Below are positions 45,476 to 50,159 of a DNA stretch of 64,000 nt, piece after piece. The stretch is from positions 62,001 through 126,000 of the forward strand of contig NZ_LKEV01000006.1 in NCBI RefSeq assembly GCF_001412085.1, written 5' to 3'. The DNA is from Corynebacterium lowii (GTDB taxonomy: Bacteria; Actinomycetota; Actinomycetes; Mycobacteriales; Mycobacteriaceae). The notes beneath the pieces are model-generated. The model was not told the origin of the DNA. It worked only from the letters and a program-made list of their open reading frames with translations, and made no database searches. How positions within the stretch are numbered: position 1 is the stretch's first letter; every line of letters begins with the position of its first letter. A program made the translations under genes and the position numbers.

Positions 45476-46312
45476 CTAGCTTGCGGCGACGATTTCGGAG
45501 GTCTTGGTCACGCCCAGGTCCGTCATGTGGATGGGGACGTTGCGGGGCTGGCCAAAGTCGATGGCGGCGCCATACCAGCGCTCACCATCGGGGGCGCACA
45601 TGCCGTGGCCCATCGAAGCGGAGCGCAGGTCGATGTACTGCACCCCTGCCTGGGCGGCGGCGTCGCGGTTCATGGCCTCTGCCATGTTTTCTAGATCGGT
45701 GGTCAGCGGCACGCCCTCGAAGGAATGAATGTTATTGCCCAGCTGCACCAGGCAGGTACCCACGTTATCGGAGATGGAGGGGTACCCCACTACCTTGATG
45801 GCGGCATTGGGGGCGGCCTGGCGGATGCGGTTGATCTGCTCCACCATCGCGGCCACAAAATTGCGGTGAATCTCCTCGGGCTTCTTCATATCCGCGAGGT
45901 TGAGATACGTGTCGTTGAAGCCGATTTGGATAAGCACCTCGCGGGTGCCGCCGTCGAGGGCGCCCTGTGCGATGGCGTCGTTAATCTGCGCGGAGATGCG
46001 CTTGCCGCCGGTGGAGGCGGAGGCGCCGGGGCAGGAATAATCGTGGGCCTCCATTCCCTTGAGGCGCGCCACCTGCTTAACCATGCCGTTGGGATCCGAG
46101 GCGCAGTGGTTGTGCACGTTCTGCTTTTGTTCCTCGGGGATGGGCAGGCCCGCGGAGAGGTGATCGAGGGCGCGCGGATTGGCCATCACGGAATCGCCAA
46201 AGCCAACGAGGGCATTGGGGGCGGCGGTGGCGGGTATGGTGCTCATCCCCAGTGCGATGGCAGCAGATACGGCGGTGACGAGGGCGCGGTGGGGCAGGGA
46301 ACGGAGACGCAT
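45476..46312 (-). CDS. secreted SGNH/GDSL-type esterase
   Basis: A 278-residue protein with a Sec signal peptide (about 1-30: basic start, hydrophobic core, ATAAPN cleavage area). Block I is GFGDSVMANP (near 37-46, nucleophile Ser), the Gly block is PGASAST, block III is QIGFNDTY (oxyanion Asn), and the end has a DLG element where the Asp/His pair would lie (VPIHMTDLG). Several Cys suggest disulfides outside the cell. It may hydrolyse acyl esters of cell-envelope lipids or glycans; the substrate is unknown. It is co-directional with the acyl-activating gene, 7 bases apart. Confidence 0.87.
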   Translation of the reverse strand: MRLRSLPHRALVTAVSAAIALGMSTIPATAAPNALVGFGDSVMANPRALDHLSAGLPIPEEQKQNVHNHCASDPNGMVKQVARLKGMEAHDYSCPGASASTGGKRISAQINDAIAQGALDGGTREVLIQIGFNDTYLNLADMKKPEEIHRNFVAAMVEQINRIRQAAPNAAIKVVGYPSISDNVGTCLVQLGNNIHSFEGVPLTTDLENMAEAMNRDAAAQAGVQYIDLRSASMGHGMCAPDGERWYGAAIDFGQPRNVPIHMTDLGVTKTSEIVAAS

Positions 46313-46506
46313 TGCTTTGGGCAGTCCTTACTCTATTGATGCGATACCTACGGGGTGGATGTTACTGGTGTGAATTGAGATCATACTAACCTCTTTATTA
46401 TTTTGTTGGCAAAATGTGCACCGATTGTCTGTGTTGCTTGCCAACGGTTCCAGCAACGTTCCAGGGATACTTTACTCATCGTGGGCCGTGATGGAACTGT
46501 TACCTA

Positions 46507-46533
46507 CCCCGCAGTTTCCGGGGCTCTGCGGGG
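46507..46533. repeat. perfect 8-bp GC hairpin upstream of metF
   Basis: CCCCGCAG (46507-46514) and CTGCGGGG (46526-46533) are exact inverted copies with an 11-base loop, followed on the plus strand by ATTTATATT rather than a clean U-run. It could be a weak terminator or a protein-binding site about 90 bases before the riboswitch. Confidence 0.45.
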
Positions 46534-46621
46534 ATTTATATTCACGGTGTGAGCAGGATAAATGGCGGATTGAGAGTAAAAACGTACCGCACGGTCTGTC
46601 TTGTCCTCTACGCTAGGCAGC

Positions 46622-46714
46622 AACCTATTCAGAGCGGCCGAGAGACCCGGCTCTACGACGCCGCAGCAACCCCCAGAGCCCTGGAAGGGTGCTACAGCCA
46701 GGTTCGATAGGGAG
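46622..46714 (+). ncRNA. SAM-I-class (S-box) riboswitch with reduced P4, controlling metF-metE
   Basis: The core aligns with the S-box consensus: CTATTCAGAGCGG, GAGAGA, GGCTC, TACGACGCC, GCAGCAACC and GGGTGCTAC. P1 is CCTAT (46624-46628) with ATAGG (46707-46711). P2 is AGAGC (46631-46635) with GCTCT (46650-46654). P3 is CCC/GGG plus CCAG/CTGG (46670-46676 with 46681-46689). The usual P4 hairpin is essentially absent: only about 8 bases separate the J3/4 region from the 3' strand of P1. The metF Shine-Dalgarno GGGAG (46710-46714) overlaps P1, so SAM binding should hide it and switch translation off. Confidence 0.85.
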
Positions 46715-46719
46715 CAACT

Positions 46720-47787
46720 ATGTCTACCGCACACCTCTACAGCGAGTACCGCCCCGGCGTGCCCGCTGCTACCCCCACGGTGTCCTTTGAGCTTTATCCC
46801 CCACGCAACCCCTCGCGGGGCTCCGGCGTGTGGGCTGGAATCAGCAGGCTCATCGACACCGCCCCCGATTACGTCTCCGTCACCTATGGCGCGGCTGGCA
46901 AGCGCACGGATACTCGGGATCGCTCTGTTCAGGTATTGCTCAATGTGCTTGACCGCCACCGCAATCTTCCCGCCGTGGCGCATTTAACGTGCCTGGGCTC
47001 GACCCGGGCGGAACTCACCCTCATCGTGCGCCTGCTGTTGCGGGCCGGGATTAGGGATTTTCTTGCCCTGCGCGGCGATCCCCCGGGAGGCGACCCCAAT
47101 TATCTGCCCGCCGAGGGCGAGCCCGCCCGGGCAGTGGATCTGGTGCGCCTCATTCGTGAGATTGCGGCGGAGGAACTACCCCTGGGCGTGGGGCGCGGTT
47201 ATAACGGCGCCGGTGCCACCAGTGCGCCACGCCCGGAGGATTACGTTTCCATCGCCGTGGCGGCTTACCCCGCGGCCACGGGCCAGGGCCGCGCCAATGA
47301 CATCGCGGCCCTGGTGGAAAAGGAACGCGCGGGGGCGGATTACGCCATTACCCAGGTGTTCTATTCCCCTCACGATTATGACTCGATGGTGCGCGAACTC
47401 AGCTTGGCGGGCGGGCGGCTGCCCATCGTTCCGGGCATTATGCCGCTGCACGATCTCAAGCGGCTGCGCGCTATGGAGAAACTAGCCGGTATCCCCGTGC
47501 CCAAGCATATTGAGCGCATTTTCTCCCAGGCCACCAGCCCGGATCGCCTGGTGCGCGAGACACTGAGCGCCACCGTGGATGTGATCGGCGGGGTGCTCGA
47601 TGCGGGTGCTCCGGGTATTCACCTCTACACCTTCAATCGTCCCCGTCCCACCCTGGACATCCTGGAATATCTCCGGGCCTCGGGGTATCTGGGCAGAACC
47701 GCCGGGGTGCGCACCCCGCGCGAACCCGAGGTGGATACGGAACTCGTATCCCTCGCTCTGCACCGCATGACCCCTAGTTACTACTGA
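46720..47787 (+). CDS. metF: 5,10-methylenetetrahydrofolate reductase
   Basis: A 355-residue (beta/alpha)8 flavoprotein that reduces methylene-THF to methyl-THF, the methyl donor for methionine. TVSFELYPPRNP (N-terminal strand with catalytic Glu), DYVSVTYGA, AHLTCLG and FLALRGDPPGG are family motifs, and ITQVFYS follows in the FAD-binding half. Its length is slightly above the bacterial norm. The ATG is 5 bases after GGGAG, the ribosome binding site held by the riboswitch. The stop overlaps the first possible metE ATG by one base, so metF-metE is one operon that supplies and uses methyl-THF. Confidence 0.95.
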   Translation: MSTAHLYSEYRPGVPAATPTVSFELYPPRNPSRGSGVWAGISRLIDTAPDYVSVTYGAAGKRTDTRDRSVQVLLNVLDRHRNLPAVAHLTCLGSTRAELTLIVRLLLRAGIRDFLALRGDPPGGDPNYLPAEGEPARAVDLVRLIREIAAEELPLGVGRGYNGAGATSAPRPEDYVSIAVAAYPAATGQGRANDIAALVEKERAGADYAITQVFYSPHDYDSMVRELSLAGGRLPIVPGIMPLHDLKRLRAMEKLAGIPVPKHIERIFSQATSPDRLVRETLSATVDVIGGVLDAGAPGIHLYTFNRPRPTLDILEYLRASGYLGRTAGVRTPREPEVDTELVSLALHRMTPSYY

Positions 47788-47813
47788 TGAGCAACGAAAA
47801 GAAAGGCATGACC

Positions 47814-50159
47814 ATGACCCACTTCCCCACCGCCACCGTGCTGGGTTACCCCCGCATCGGCGCCAACCGCGAGCTCAAGCGAGCCTTGGAATCCTTCTGG
47901 TCCGGGCGCGGCGGCAACCCGGCCACCACCGCCGAGGAACTGCGCGATACCCGCACGAACCGCCTGCGCGAGTTGGGTTTGGGTGAGGCTGCGGCCGTCC
48001 CGGAGGATTTCAGCTACTACGATCAGGTGCTTGACATCACCATCGCCACCGGCGCGCTGCCCAGCCGCTTTGCCCCAGAGCGCGAGGTGCTCAAGGCACA
48101 GGCCGCCACCCCGGAATCGGAGGAGGCGCTGCGCGCCCAGTTCACCGTGGCGCGCGGCCAGGGGGATCGCCCCGCTTTGGAGCTGACCAAGTGGTTTGAC
48201 TCCAATTACCACTACCTCGTGCCGGAGATCGGCCCGGAGACCGCCCTGGAATGGCTGGGTTCCCCCCGCGTGGCCACCGCGCAGCGCCTGGGTGAGGCCG
48301 TGCGCCCCGTGCTCGTAGGCCCGGTGACCTACCTGGCCCTGGCCAAAGCCAGCGAGGAGGCCCCCGAGGGCTATAACCCGCTGGATCGCCTGGACGACCT
48401 GGTGGCCGTGTACACCCAATACCTCCGCGCCCTCAAGGAGGCCGGGGTGCAGTGGGTGCAGTTCGACGAGCCCGCGTTGGTCACCCACCGTCACCGCACC
48501 CCGCAGGAGCGCGAGGCGCTTCTCGACGCCCTGCGCCGCGCCTACACCGCGCTGGGCAACGAGGGCGTTAACCTCGCCGTGGCACTCACCTATGGCCATG
48601 CTTTCGACGCCGTGGACGCGCTCGCTGAAACTCCCGTGCAGGCCGTGATTATCGACGTCGTTCGCGGCAAGAAGCCGGGTGCGGCCGAGCTGGAGCGCTG
48701 GGCTACGAGCCTCAAGGGCAAGACCCTGGGCGTGGGCGTGGTCTCTGGTCGCAACATCTGGCGTGCCGATCTGGATGCTGATTTGGCCGTGCTGCGCGAG
48801 ATCAAGGCGGGGCTGGGCGAGGCCGTGGCGGTGGCCGTGACCACTTCCACCTCCCTGCAACACGTTCCCCACGATGCCGAGCGCGAGACCCAGCTGGACG
48901 CCGAGCTGCGCTCCTGGCTCTCCTTTGCCGATCAGAAGGTGAAGGAAGTAGCCGTGCTCGCCCGCGGTCTGGCCGAGGGGGACGAGGCCATCGCCGCCGA
49001 ATTGGAAGCCTCCCGCGCGGCACAGGCCTCCCGCAAGGCTCACCCCGGCGTCGAAAAGGCAGAAGTTCGCCAGGCTACCGCCGCCGTGACCGAGGAGCAG
49101 CGCACGCGTGGCGACGCCGCCGAGCGCCACGATGCCCAGGCCGCAGCGCTAGGCCTGCCGGTGCTGCCCACCACCACCATCGGTTCCTTCCCGCAGACCG
49201 ACGAGATCCGCCGCGCCCGCGCCGCACACCGCAGCGGCAAGATCGACGATCAGGCCTATGAGGAGGCGATGAAGAAAGAGATTGCCGAGGTCATCGCGGC
49301 CCAAGAGGAAATTGGCCTGGACGTGTTGGTCCACGGCGAGGCCGAGCGCAACGATATGGTGCAGTACTTTGCCGAGAACTTCGAGGGCTTTGCCACCACC
49401 GCTCACGGCTGGGTGCAGTCCTATGGTTCGCGCTGCACGCGCCCCTCGATCCTGTGGGGCGATGTGACTCGCCCGGAGGCGATTACCGTGGAGTGGTCGC
49501 GCTACGCGCAGTCGCTGAGTAAGCGCCCGGTCAAGGGCATGCTCACCGGCCCGGTGACCATCATGGCCTGGTCCTTTGTGCGCGAGGACATCGCCTGGGG
49601 CGAAGTGGCCGATCAGCTCGGCCTGGCCCTGCGCGAAGAGGTGGGCGATCTGGAGGCCGCCGGCATCAAGGTCATTCAGGTTGATGAGCCCGCCATCCGT
49701 GAGCTGCTGCCCCTGCGTGAGGAGGACCGGGAGGATTACCTGGCTTGGTCGGTGGGTTCCTTCCGCCTGGCCACCGCCGGTGCCGCCCCGGCCACCAGTA
49801 TTCACACGCACCTGTGCTACTCGGACTTTGCCACTATCGTGGACGCCATCGATCGCCTCGACGCCGATGTCACCTCGATCGAGGCTTCCCGCTCCAAGCT
49901 CAAGGTGCTCCCCGCCGTGGCCGAGCACGGTTTCCACCGCGGCCTGGGGCCGGGCGTGTGGGATATTCACTCCGCGCGCGTGCCCTCCACCGAGGAGATC
50001 GCTGACCTGCTGCGCGTGGCCGTGGGCGCCCTGGACACTGAGCAGGTGTGGGTGAACCCGGACTGCGGCCTTAAGACCCGCGCTTGGGAGGAAACCTCCG
50101 CTACCCTGCGCAACCTCGTGGAGGCCACCCGCATCGTGCGCGAGGAAATCGCCCAGTAA
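47814..50159 (+). CDS. metE: cobalamin-independent methionine synthase
   Basis: A 781-residue enzyme that transfers a methyl group from methyl-THF-polyglutamate to homocysteine without B12. Two similar barrels are present; the N-terminal one opens with TVLGYPRIGANRELKRALE. The C-terminal catalytic half carries PTTTIGSFPQT, the zinc ligands His and Cys in IHTHLCYSDF, and a last Cys in NPDCGLKTR. ATG 47814 is preferred because AAAGG lies 7 bases before it; ATG 47787 and 47808 are in frame. It is controlled with metF by the SAM riboswitch. Confidence 0.95.
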   Translation: MTHFPTATVLGYPRIGANRELKRALESFWSGRGGNPATTAEELRDTRTNRLRELGLGEAAAVPEDFSYYDQVLDITIATGALPSRFAPEREVLKAQAATPESEEALRAQFTVARGQGDRPALELTKWFDSNYHYLVPEIGPETALEWLGSPRVATAQRLGEAVRPVLVGPVTYLALAKASEEAPEGYNPLDRLDDLVAVYTQYLRALKEAGVQWVQFDEPALVTHRHRTPQEREALLDALRRAYTALGNEGVNLAVALTYGHAFDAVDALAETPVQAVIIDVVRGKKPGAAELERWATSLKGKTLGVGVVSGRNIWRADLDADLAVLREIKAGLGEAVAVAVTTSTSLQHVPHDAERETQLDAELRSWLSFADQKVKEVAVLARGLAEGDEAIAAELEASRAAQASRKAHPGVEKAEVRQATAAVTEEQRTRGDAAERHDAQAAALGLPVLPTTTIGSFPQTDEIRRARAAHRSGKIDDQAYEEAMKKEIAEVIAAQEEIGLDVLVHGEAERNDMVQYFAENFEGFATTAHGWVQSYGSRCTRPSILWGDVTRPEAITVEWSRYAQSLSKRPVKGMLTGPVTIMAWSFVREDIAWGEVADQLGLALREEVGDLEAAGIKVIQVDEPAIRELLPLREEDREDYLAWSVGSFRLATAGAAPATSIHTHLCYSDFATIVDAIDRLDADVTSIEASRSKLKVLPAVAEHGFHRGLGPGVWDIHSARVPSTEEIADLLRVAVGALDTEQVWVNPDCGLKTRAWEETSATLRNLVEATRIVREEIAQ

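Follow-up and report, generated by a model that had tools for sequence, protein, structure and literature searches.

The RNA leader in front of metF-metE in Corynebacterium lowii holds a riboswitch of the SAM-I kind built from three helices, without the P4 stem, and it is best read as a cis-acting, SAM-responsive OFF switch that blocks translation of metF-metE through its P1 helix, the whole unit having probably come from a Georgenia- or Actinomyces-like donor. We give this reading a probability of roughly 0.8. Observed directly are the homology to SAM-I, the absence of P4, covarying pairs in P1, in P2 and in the pseudoknot, the position of the ribosome binding site and the gene context.

The aptamer lies at the end of the 407-base gap between metF and a divergent gene for a GDSL-type hydrolase (Table 1), within the stretch of 64,000 nucleotides that was analysed (the window) of a 2.35 Mb genome. 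Matches to PF02219, TIGR00676 and NF003556 support the metF-metE pair that an earlier reading of the sequence alone had placed downstream, and the metF found here is the sole match to a methylenetetrahydrofolate reductase in the genome. Close to C. lowii are C. mastitidis, C. oculi and the strain zg-331, with MetF proteins 87-89% identical.

Table 1. Features of the metF-metE locus of C. lowii, with positions in the window.
Feature	Positions	Strand	Basis and remarks
Divergent GDSL-type hydrolase gene	45476-46312	-	PF13472
Candidate promoter: conserved TACCGCACGGTCTGTCTTGT and -10-like TACGCT	46585-46604 and 46609-46614	+	The 20-nt block is unchanged in 4 of the 5 species compared
SAM-I-type aptamer without P4, three helices and pseudoknot	46622-46713	+	RF00162, 58.4 bits; own covariance model R1, built from 40 sequences with this aptamer among them, 90.3 bits
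P1, 5' strand CCUAUU	46624-46629	+	Pairs with 46706-46711, last pair U.G; alignments A1 and A3
P2	46634-46664	+	P2a 46634-46638/46660-46664; P2b 46642-46644/46651-46653; tandem-GA kink-turn between; alignments
Loop 2 ACCCGG, 5' strand of pseudoknot	46645-46650	+	Helix 98.6% paired over 86 distinct rows
P3 with conserved GCAACC and GGUGCU strands	46665-46693	+	Alignments; proximal pairs near-invariant, no covariation support
J3/1, 12 nt	46694-46705	+	3' strand of pseudoknot 46698-46702 (perhaps 46703), then linker of 2-3 nt where SAM-I RNAs carry P4
P1, 3' strand GAUAGG	46706-46711	+	Pairs with 46624-46629; alignments
Ribosome binding site GGAG	46711-46714	+	Sequence; first base in common with the end of P1
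metF (methylenetetrahydrofolate reductase)	46720-47787	+	PF02219, 202 bits; TIGR00676, 203 bits, under its cut-off of 294
metE (cobalamin-independent methionine synthase)	47787-50159	+	NF003556, 991 bits

Assignment of the aptamer to SAM-I

In regard to the class of the RNA, the sequence-only reading had recognized the S-box core, with P1, P2, P3 and their junctions, and covariance models bear this out. RF00162 matches at 46622-46713 above its gathering cut-off (58.4 against 44.4 bits, E 6.3e-11 in the 64-kb window), and this is both the only riboswitch match at Rfam cut-offs in the window and the only RF00162 match in the whole genome. Between 46200 and 46900, RF00162 alone matches up to E 10 when the best model of each clan is kept. 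J1/2 (AGAG), GCAACC and GGUGCU, whose columns follow RF00162, are all present together with P1-P3, and the GA/GA columns of P2 are invariant in the 40 rows of alignment A1, which points to a kink-turn fold in P2. With SAM-I (S box, RF00162) the RNA has in common the SAM-binding core, P1, the kink-turned P2, P3 and the association with methionine genes, and a loop-2 pseudoknot that a C.A mismatch interrupts in the C. lowii clade; it differs in the lack of P4, with three junction helices instead of four in an aptamer of 92 nt. The element is a three-helix SAM-I variant, real and conserved, and its core predicts SAM binding.

The same reading had also considered a SAM-IV-like variant. SAM-IV (RF00634) likewise combines the common SAM-binding core with a missing P4 and a loop-2 pseudoknot, PK-1 (PMC6890682), and a SAM-IV riboswitch has been reported at cg1478 of C. 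glutamicum (PMC3890552). However, neither RF00634 nor RF01725 matches at the locus up to E 10 (genome search with a heuristic first look), P2 has the kink-turn of SAM-I, and the ATG of metF at 46720, only 5 nt past GGAG, leaves no untranslated space for P5. Furthermore, PK-2, in which the P3 loop would pair with sequence further downstream and which is a mark of SAM-IV and of SAM-I/IV (RF01725), gave no signal in 89 aligned loci, where the mean best helix was 6.58 against 6.60 for shuffled sequences. The SAM-IV-like reading was accordingly abandoned, and membership of SAM-IV or SAM-I/IV with other peripheral parts (P5, PK-2) is highly improbable. SAM-I/IV belongs to the same clan, but it possesses P4 and lacks PK-1 (PMC6890682), while the RNA of C. 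lowii has no P4.

A SAM-I-derived aptamer that has turned to a different ligand would resemble the spermidine riboswitches, and variants of such a kind do exist (PMC10853860). Those variants are altered in J1/2 and in the P3 internal loop (PMC10853860), whereas here J1/2 and both conserved P3 strands keep to the SAM-I pattern, and the genes downstream are metF-metE; a change of ligand is therefore very hard to credit.

Absence of P4, the pseudoknot and covariation

P3 and P1 are joined by only 12 nt (46694-46705), and the pseudoknot with loop 2 fills this connection up to 46702 or 46703, so that no room is left for a P4 stem. The loss of P4 noticed in the sequence-only reading thus stands: J3/1 contains no stem, and its length is 11-13 nt in all 89 aligned short-form loci. 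That reading had also held that the variant deserved a comparison of its own. The P4-less form is indeed real, but it is not unique to this locus, as all 63 aligned family-level SAM-I loci are without P4. Published consensus models of SAM-I count P4 among their four stems (PMC10853860), and P4 serves to tell SAM-I from SAM-IV (PMC7270179). In the open-access literature searched, we found no description of P4 loss in SAM-I.

The alignment behind these counts (A3) has 89 rows, 86 of them distinct, comprising 14 short forms from a set of 151 genomes, 63 family-level loci taken among the matches listed (115 of 401 family genomes are positive for RF00162) and 12 from metF loci, with the near-copies L035, L054-L057, L060, L061 and L083 excluded. 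The set of 151 genomes, which covers C. lowii, its genus and other families of the order, yielded 70 RF00162 matches. All 15 that are shorter than 96 nt have, on inspection, the short P3-P1 connection seen in C. lowii, and the P4 stem is present in 29 of 29 longer matches inspected by eye (L002-L031 without L023). Short P4-less and long SAM-I matches occur together in eight genomes (G103, G115, G119, G124, G132, G136, G140 and G146), the inspected long ones having P4.

Outside the family, 28 of the best phylum-level matches to R1 (L163-L191 without L170; 16 family codes) have a J3/1 of 10-12 nt and, in 25 cases, at least four pseudoknot pairs; since they were selected by a short-form model, they indicate spread and not frequency. 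Across the phylum, R1 has matches in 186 of 396 genomes, a count that includes P4-bearing forms. Judging from these sequences, the P4-less form is widespread in actinobacteria and represents a rule, not an accident, and if SAM is bound, P4 would be dispensable in RNAs across many actinobacterial families. Most aptamers of the aligned set are about 80-100 nt long. In three Actinomyces metF leaders (L088, L089, L091) the SAM-I aptamers measure about 82-83 nt, and P3 too is reduced to few pairs.

A3 was fitted to P1-P3, with the pseudoknot left unfitted. Overall, 92.9% of its cells are paired, and two-sided changes occur at 15 of 27 pairs (107 cells), values reached by none of 500 shuffles, a control that ignores the relatedness of the 89 rows, while structures slid along the alignment are only 29-50% paired. 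The pseudoknot, with 98.6% of cells paired, has two-sided changes at four of its five pairs. P1 is paired in 77% of cells: its three outermost model pairs are open in 40, 48 and 67 of the 86 rows, its inner five pairs are formed in nearly all rows, and within this core two-sided changes affect pairs 4 and 5, with both A-U pairs never varying. The proximal pairs of P3 are near-constant and hence uninformative. The covariation looked for in P1-P3 among relatives was therefore found in P1 and P2, and additionally in the pseudoknot, but not in proximal P3, which hardly varies. Alignment A1 (40 rows, MAFFT, unfitted) agrees with A3 on four of five measures, the fifth, the number of pair types, being equalled by 65 of 500 shuffles; a sixth pseudoknot pair tried in A1 was open in 33 of 35 rows.

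At least four contiguous pairs between loop 2 and J3/1 are possible in 84 of the 89 aligned loci. The five that fall short are C. lowii, C. mastitidis, C. oculi and zg-331, where C46648 faces A46700, and G048, which has a bulged A. Five further metF leaders of the genus (those of C. uropygiale, G958, G993, G990 and G972) keep the equivalent pair intact, and C. uropygiale additionally presents a two-sided change in the pseudoknot, from C-G to U-A. The C.A mismatch of the C. lowii clade could be tolerated, but could also make binding weaker. A trade-off in pseudoknot length between P4-bearing and P4-less RNAs was considered and dropped, the P4-less model (A4) having misaligned the 3' ends of L002-L031; by eye, these P4-bearing loci have about four pseudoknot pairs.

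Such damage to the pseudoknot, in the C. lowii clade as well as in G048, could also belong to a decaying SAM-I remnant that has lost both P4 and SAM control, and the shortness of P1 and the presence of a match in just 15 of 201 Corynebacterium genomes would fit the same scenario. On the other hand, the 92-nt aptamer is identical in C. lowii, C. mastitidis, C. oculi and zg-331 although their flanks have diverged, the pseudoknot of C. uropygiale has changed on both sides, the P4-less form is common to all the aligned loci, and A1 shows no variation in the core columns. Decay is thus decidedly unlikely, and a maintained three-helix SAM-I aptamer is preferred.

Ribosome binding site and proposed control of metF-metE

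The sequence-only reading had noted that the ribosome binding site overlaps the 3' strand of P1, and this arrangement recurs in most of the aligned loci. In C. lowii, GGAG has one base in common with P1, and the longer AGGGAG (46709-46714) has three, its AGG lying within the helix. With the Shine-Dalgarno consensus that we assumed for these counts, a match of at least 4 nt is situated in or beside the 3' strand of P1 in 80 of the 89 loci, and it starts within the eight model columns of that strand in 78. Sequestration of the ribosome binding site in P1 has already been described as a mechanism of actinobacterial SAM-I riboswitches (PMC2258182), which limits the surprise of the C. lowii switch.

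P1 of C. lowii consists of six pairs only. In ligand-free folding it is the preferred partner of its bases (0.53-0.83), and in nine other Corynebacterium leaders the P1 bases favour other partners or P1 does not exceed 0.06; a ligand-dependent helix could show such folding, which is not proof. According to the proposed mechanism, abundant SAM would bind the conserved core, dock P1 and P3 and stabilise P1. As the closed 3' strand holds the start of the metF Shine-Dalgarno sequence, initiation by the ribosome would be blocked and metF-metE silenced. With little SAM present, P1, a short helix rich in A and U, would open and leave the site accessible. A separate expression platform would be unnecessary, and the usual role of P4 would be filled, at least in relatives, by the pseudoknot running nearly to P1. 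In this scheme it is SAM binding, the OFF direction, the translational level and the compensation for P4 that we infer. Aptamers with a built-in ribosome binding site would make good minimal models and useful genetic parts.

The SAM-I aptamer of the met operon in Xanthomonas campestris acts mainly on translation, but it has P4, a separate expression platform with an anti-Shine-Dalgarno hairpin and tRNA binding (PMC7270179). Its weak transcript-level effect, present alongside the translational one (PMC7270179), and the U-tract that follows P1 in five Corynebacterium relatives would agree with an aptamer acting mainly on transcription (through Rho or RNA polymerase) or on mRNA stability, and not on initiation. 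We consider this unlikely for C. lowii, where a simple pattern scan of 46300-46800 revealed no terminator-like site and where the feature conserved among the loci is the overlap with the ribosome binding site.

Complementarity that might compete with the aptamer was also inspected. AACCT (46622-46626) can pair with AGGTT (46700-46704), as had been suggested for an alternative state excluding P1, but the state is not conserved: in C. uropygiale AGGTT has disappeared but P1 persists, its top pair retained by a one-sided change from U.G to U-A. As a conserved switch it was rejected, the ligand-free probability being 0.04 in C. lowii, 0.36-0.40 in C. mastitidis and about 0.03 in both C. oculi and zg-331. 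A 17-nt complementarity between the upstream hairpin (46516-46532) and P3 (46670-46686, 88%) was also set aside, its upstream arm not being conserved.

Methionine genes of Corynebacterium could alternatively be controlled by protein, notably by McbR, whose operator, known from work on C. glutamicum, is TAGAC-N6-GTCTA. In agreement with the sequence-only reading, no such site occurs within two mismatches in the 400 nt upstream of metF, and McbR was rejected as regulator of metF-metE here for lack of an operator. The genome contains five exact copies (L078, L079, L080, L081, L331), neighboured by metK, a PatB-type C-S lyase, a TsuA/YeeE-type thiosulfate transporter, a ROK-like regulator (our own label, without an NCBIfam match; sfnG lies about 1.9 kb to the other side of the site) and a TIGR04028 transporter of unstated substrate. 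Four of the five are sulfur-linked. When up to one mismatch is allowed, a reversed control pattern is commoner than the motif (57 against 24 matches per strand), and we therefore rely on the exact copies and what lies next to them alone. An McbR-type regulon seems to be alive in C. lowii, with metF-metE outside it. In 15 Corynebacterium metF loci without a riboswitch, an exact copy was found in one, a one-mismatch copy in none and a two-mismatch copy in six (raw count). If SAM is bound, metF-metE would be under RNA control in a genus in which McbR is otherwise regarded as the regulator of sulfur genes, and the locus would allow one to study how an operon with a riboswitch establishes itself where a protein repressor is already present. 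McbR has been described as repressing sulfur genes globally and as being inactivated by SAH (PMC2580772).

Main control by upstream DNA-binding proteins, with the RNA secondary, could draw on several elements. The 8-bp inverted repeats to which additional protein-based control had been ascribed do exist (46405-46412/46438-46445 and 46507-46514/46526-46533), and a one-mismatch McbR-type site is found upstream of the riboswitch, 150 nt before metF, in C. uropygiale (L084 and, with an identical leader, L276) and in G958 (L277). Two other upstream elements are kept in four of five species. However, the inverted repeats are not kept among the five species and find no support as conserved protein sites; as C. 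lowii also has no McbR-type site before metF, protein as the main control is very unlikely, and translational control by the aptamer remains the preferred reading.

The conserved block TACCGCACGGTCTGTCTTGT contains the near-palindrome ACCGCACGGT and is a candidate promoter, perhaps also a protein site. The -10-like hexamer that follows differs among species (TACGCT, TAGGCT, TAGGGT), and transcription would start near the 5' end of the aptamer. The palindrome ATTTTG-N4-CAAAAT at 46400-46415, kept in four of five species, overlaps the -35-like box for the divergent hydrolase gene and is possibly an operator of that gene.

Putative leader peptides in relatives and probable origin of the Corynebacterium unit

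In relatives, P1 is frequently followed by a short reading frame. Among the 74 non-metF leader loci of A3, which are mutually related, 38 have a start codon at most 20 nt from P1 that opens a frame of up to 60 amino acids with [IV]D[LFHQEW], compared with 0.4 for shuffled tails. These frames frequently read RR.H[IV]DLCR (for example L071, L203, L193 and L067), and 31 of the 38 hold at least two cysteines. NCBIfam NF042934 (putative leader peptide) matches eight of ten tested frames at E ≤2.3e-5, five of them over the cut-off. Leader peptides with Cys runs are known upstream of actinobacterial cys operons (PMC1262725); the genomes studied in that paper yielded no conserved RNA structures ahead of their methionine operons. 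In the literature searched we met no description of a SAM riboswitch that gates a Cys leader peptide. The arrangement of these leaders suggests that a SAM switch may gate a cysteine attenuator in relatives.

Taken jointly, the observations would allow a wider reading, to which we give even odds. P4-less SAM-I would form a distinct, actinobacteria-wide subclass of three-helix aptamers, each a whole switch in itself, with a pseudoknot that extends as far as P1 in place of P4 and a ribosome binding site formed by the 3' strand of P1. In many relatives the direct output would be a conserved Cys-rich leader peptide instead of an enzyme, with SAM gating a cysteine-sensing attenuator, and the metF-metE version of Corynebacterium would be horizontally acquired.

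The riboswitch is rare in Corynebacterium: across 201 genomes of the genus, R1 detects 16 sites, spread over 15 genomes, ten of them before metF-metE, five before an MRG[EQ]IFYDSG-type frame (the single one tested is MORN_2) and one before an acyl-CoA-dehydrogenase-like gene. At L032, L033, L312, L313 and L314, P1 of a P4-less SAM-I RNA is directly followed by a U-rich run (UUCUUUUU) ahead of a small MORN_2-like gene without evident sulfur link, and at L032 transposase-like frames lie after that gene.

Among 80 metF loci from named genomes, a riboswitch is situated upstream in 13 (four from Corynebacterium and nine from Georgenia, Actinomyces, Cellulomonas and related genera), and the Arthrobacter loci all lack one. 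With the exception of L096, the 13 loci begin their metF frame no more than about 12 nt from P1, and all 13 have metE in the flank. MetF of C. lowii is 47% identical to that of Georgenia and 31-37% to those of 12 other Corynebacterium metF-metE operons; MetE is 55-61% identical to those of the nine other riboswitch-bearing loci, compared with 47-51% for the other Corynebacterium operons.

In the MetF tree, made from 64 of 132 extracted proteins hand-picked to thin Arthrobacter and the order-level set, with an arbitrary root, a programme warning of long branches meeting and a long L087, the ten riboswitch-bearing Corynebacterium proteins form one clade (100/100) that groups with Georgenia and Actinomyces (96/90). 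A wider group adds Cellulomonas and two loci without a riboswitch that group with it, L101 and L129 (99/95), and 15 other Corynebacterium proteins stand apart. Since MetF groups with riboswitch-bearing Georgenia and Actinomyces and not with the other Corynebacterium, horizontal acquisition is suggested, and the riboswitch-metF-metE unit was probably gained from a Georgenia/Actinomyces-like donor. Horizontal gain is the simplest reading, the alternative being loss in other lineages. In the same tree, MetF of L132, from a record labelled Sporosarcina, falls inside Arthrobacter, and this record is mislabelled, contaminated or the product of a transfer.
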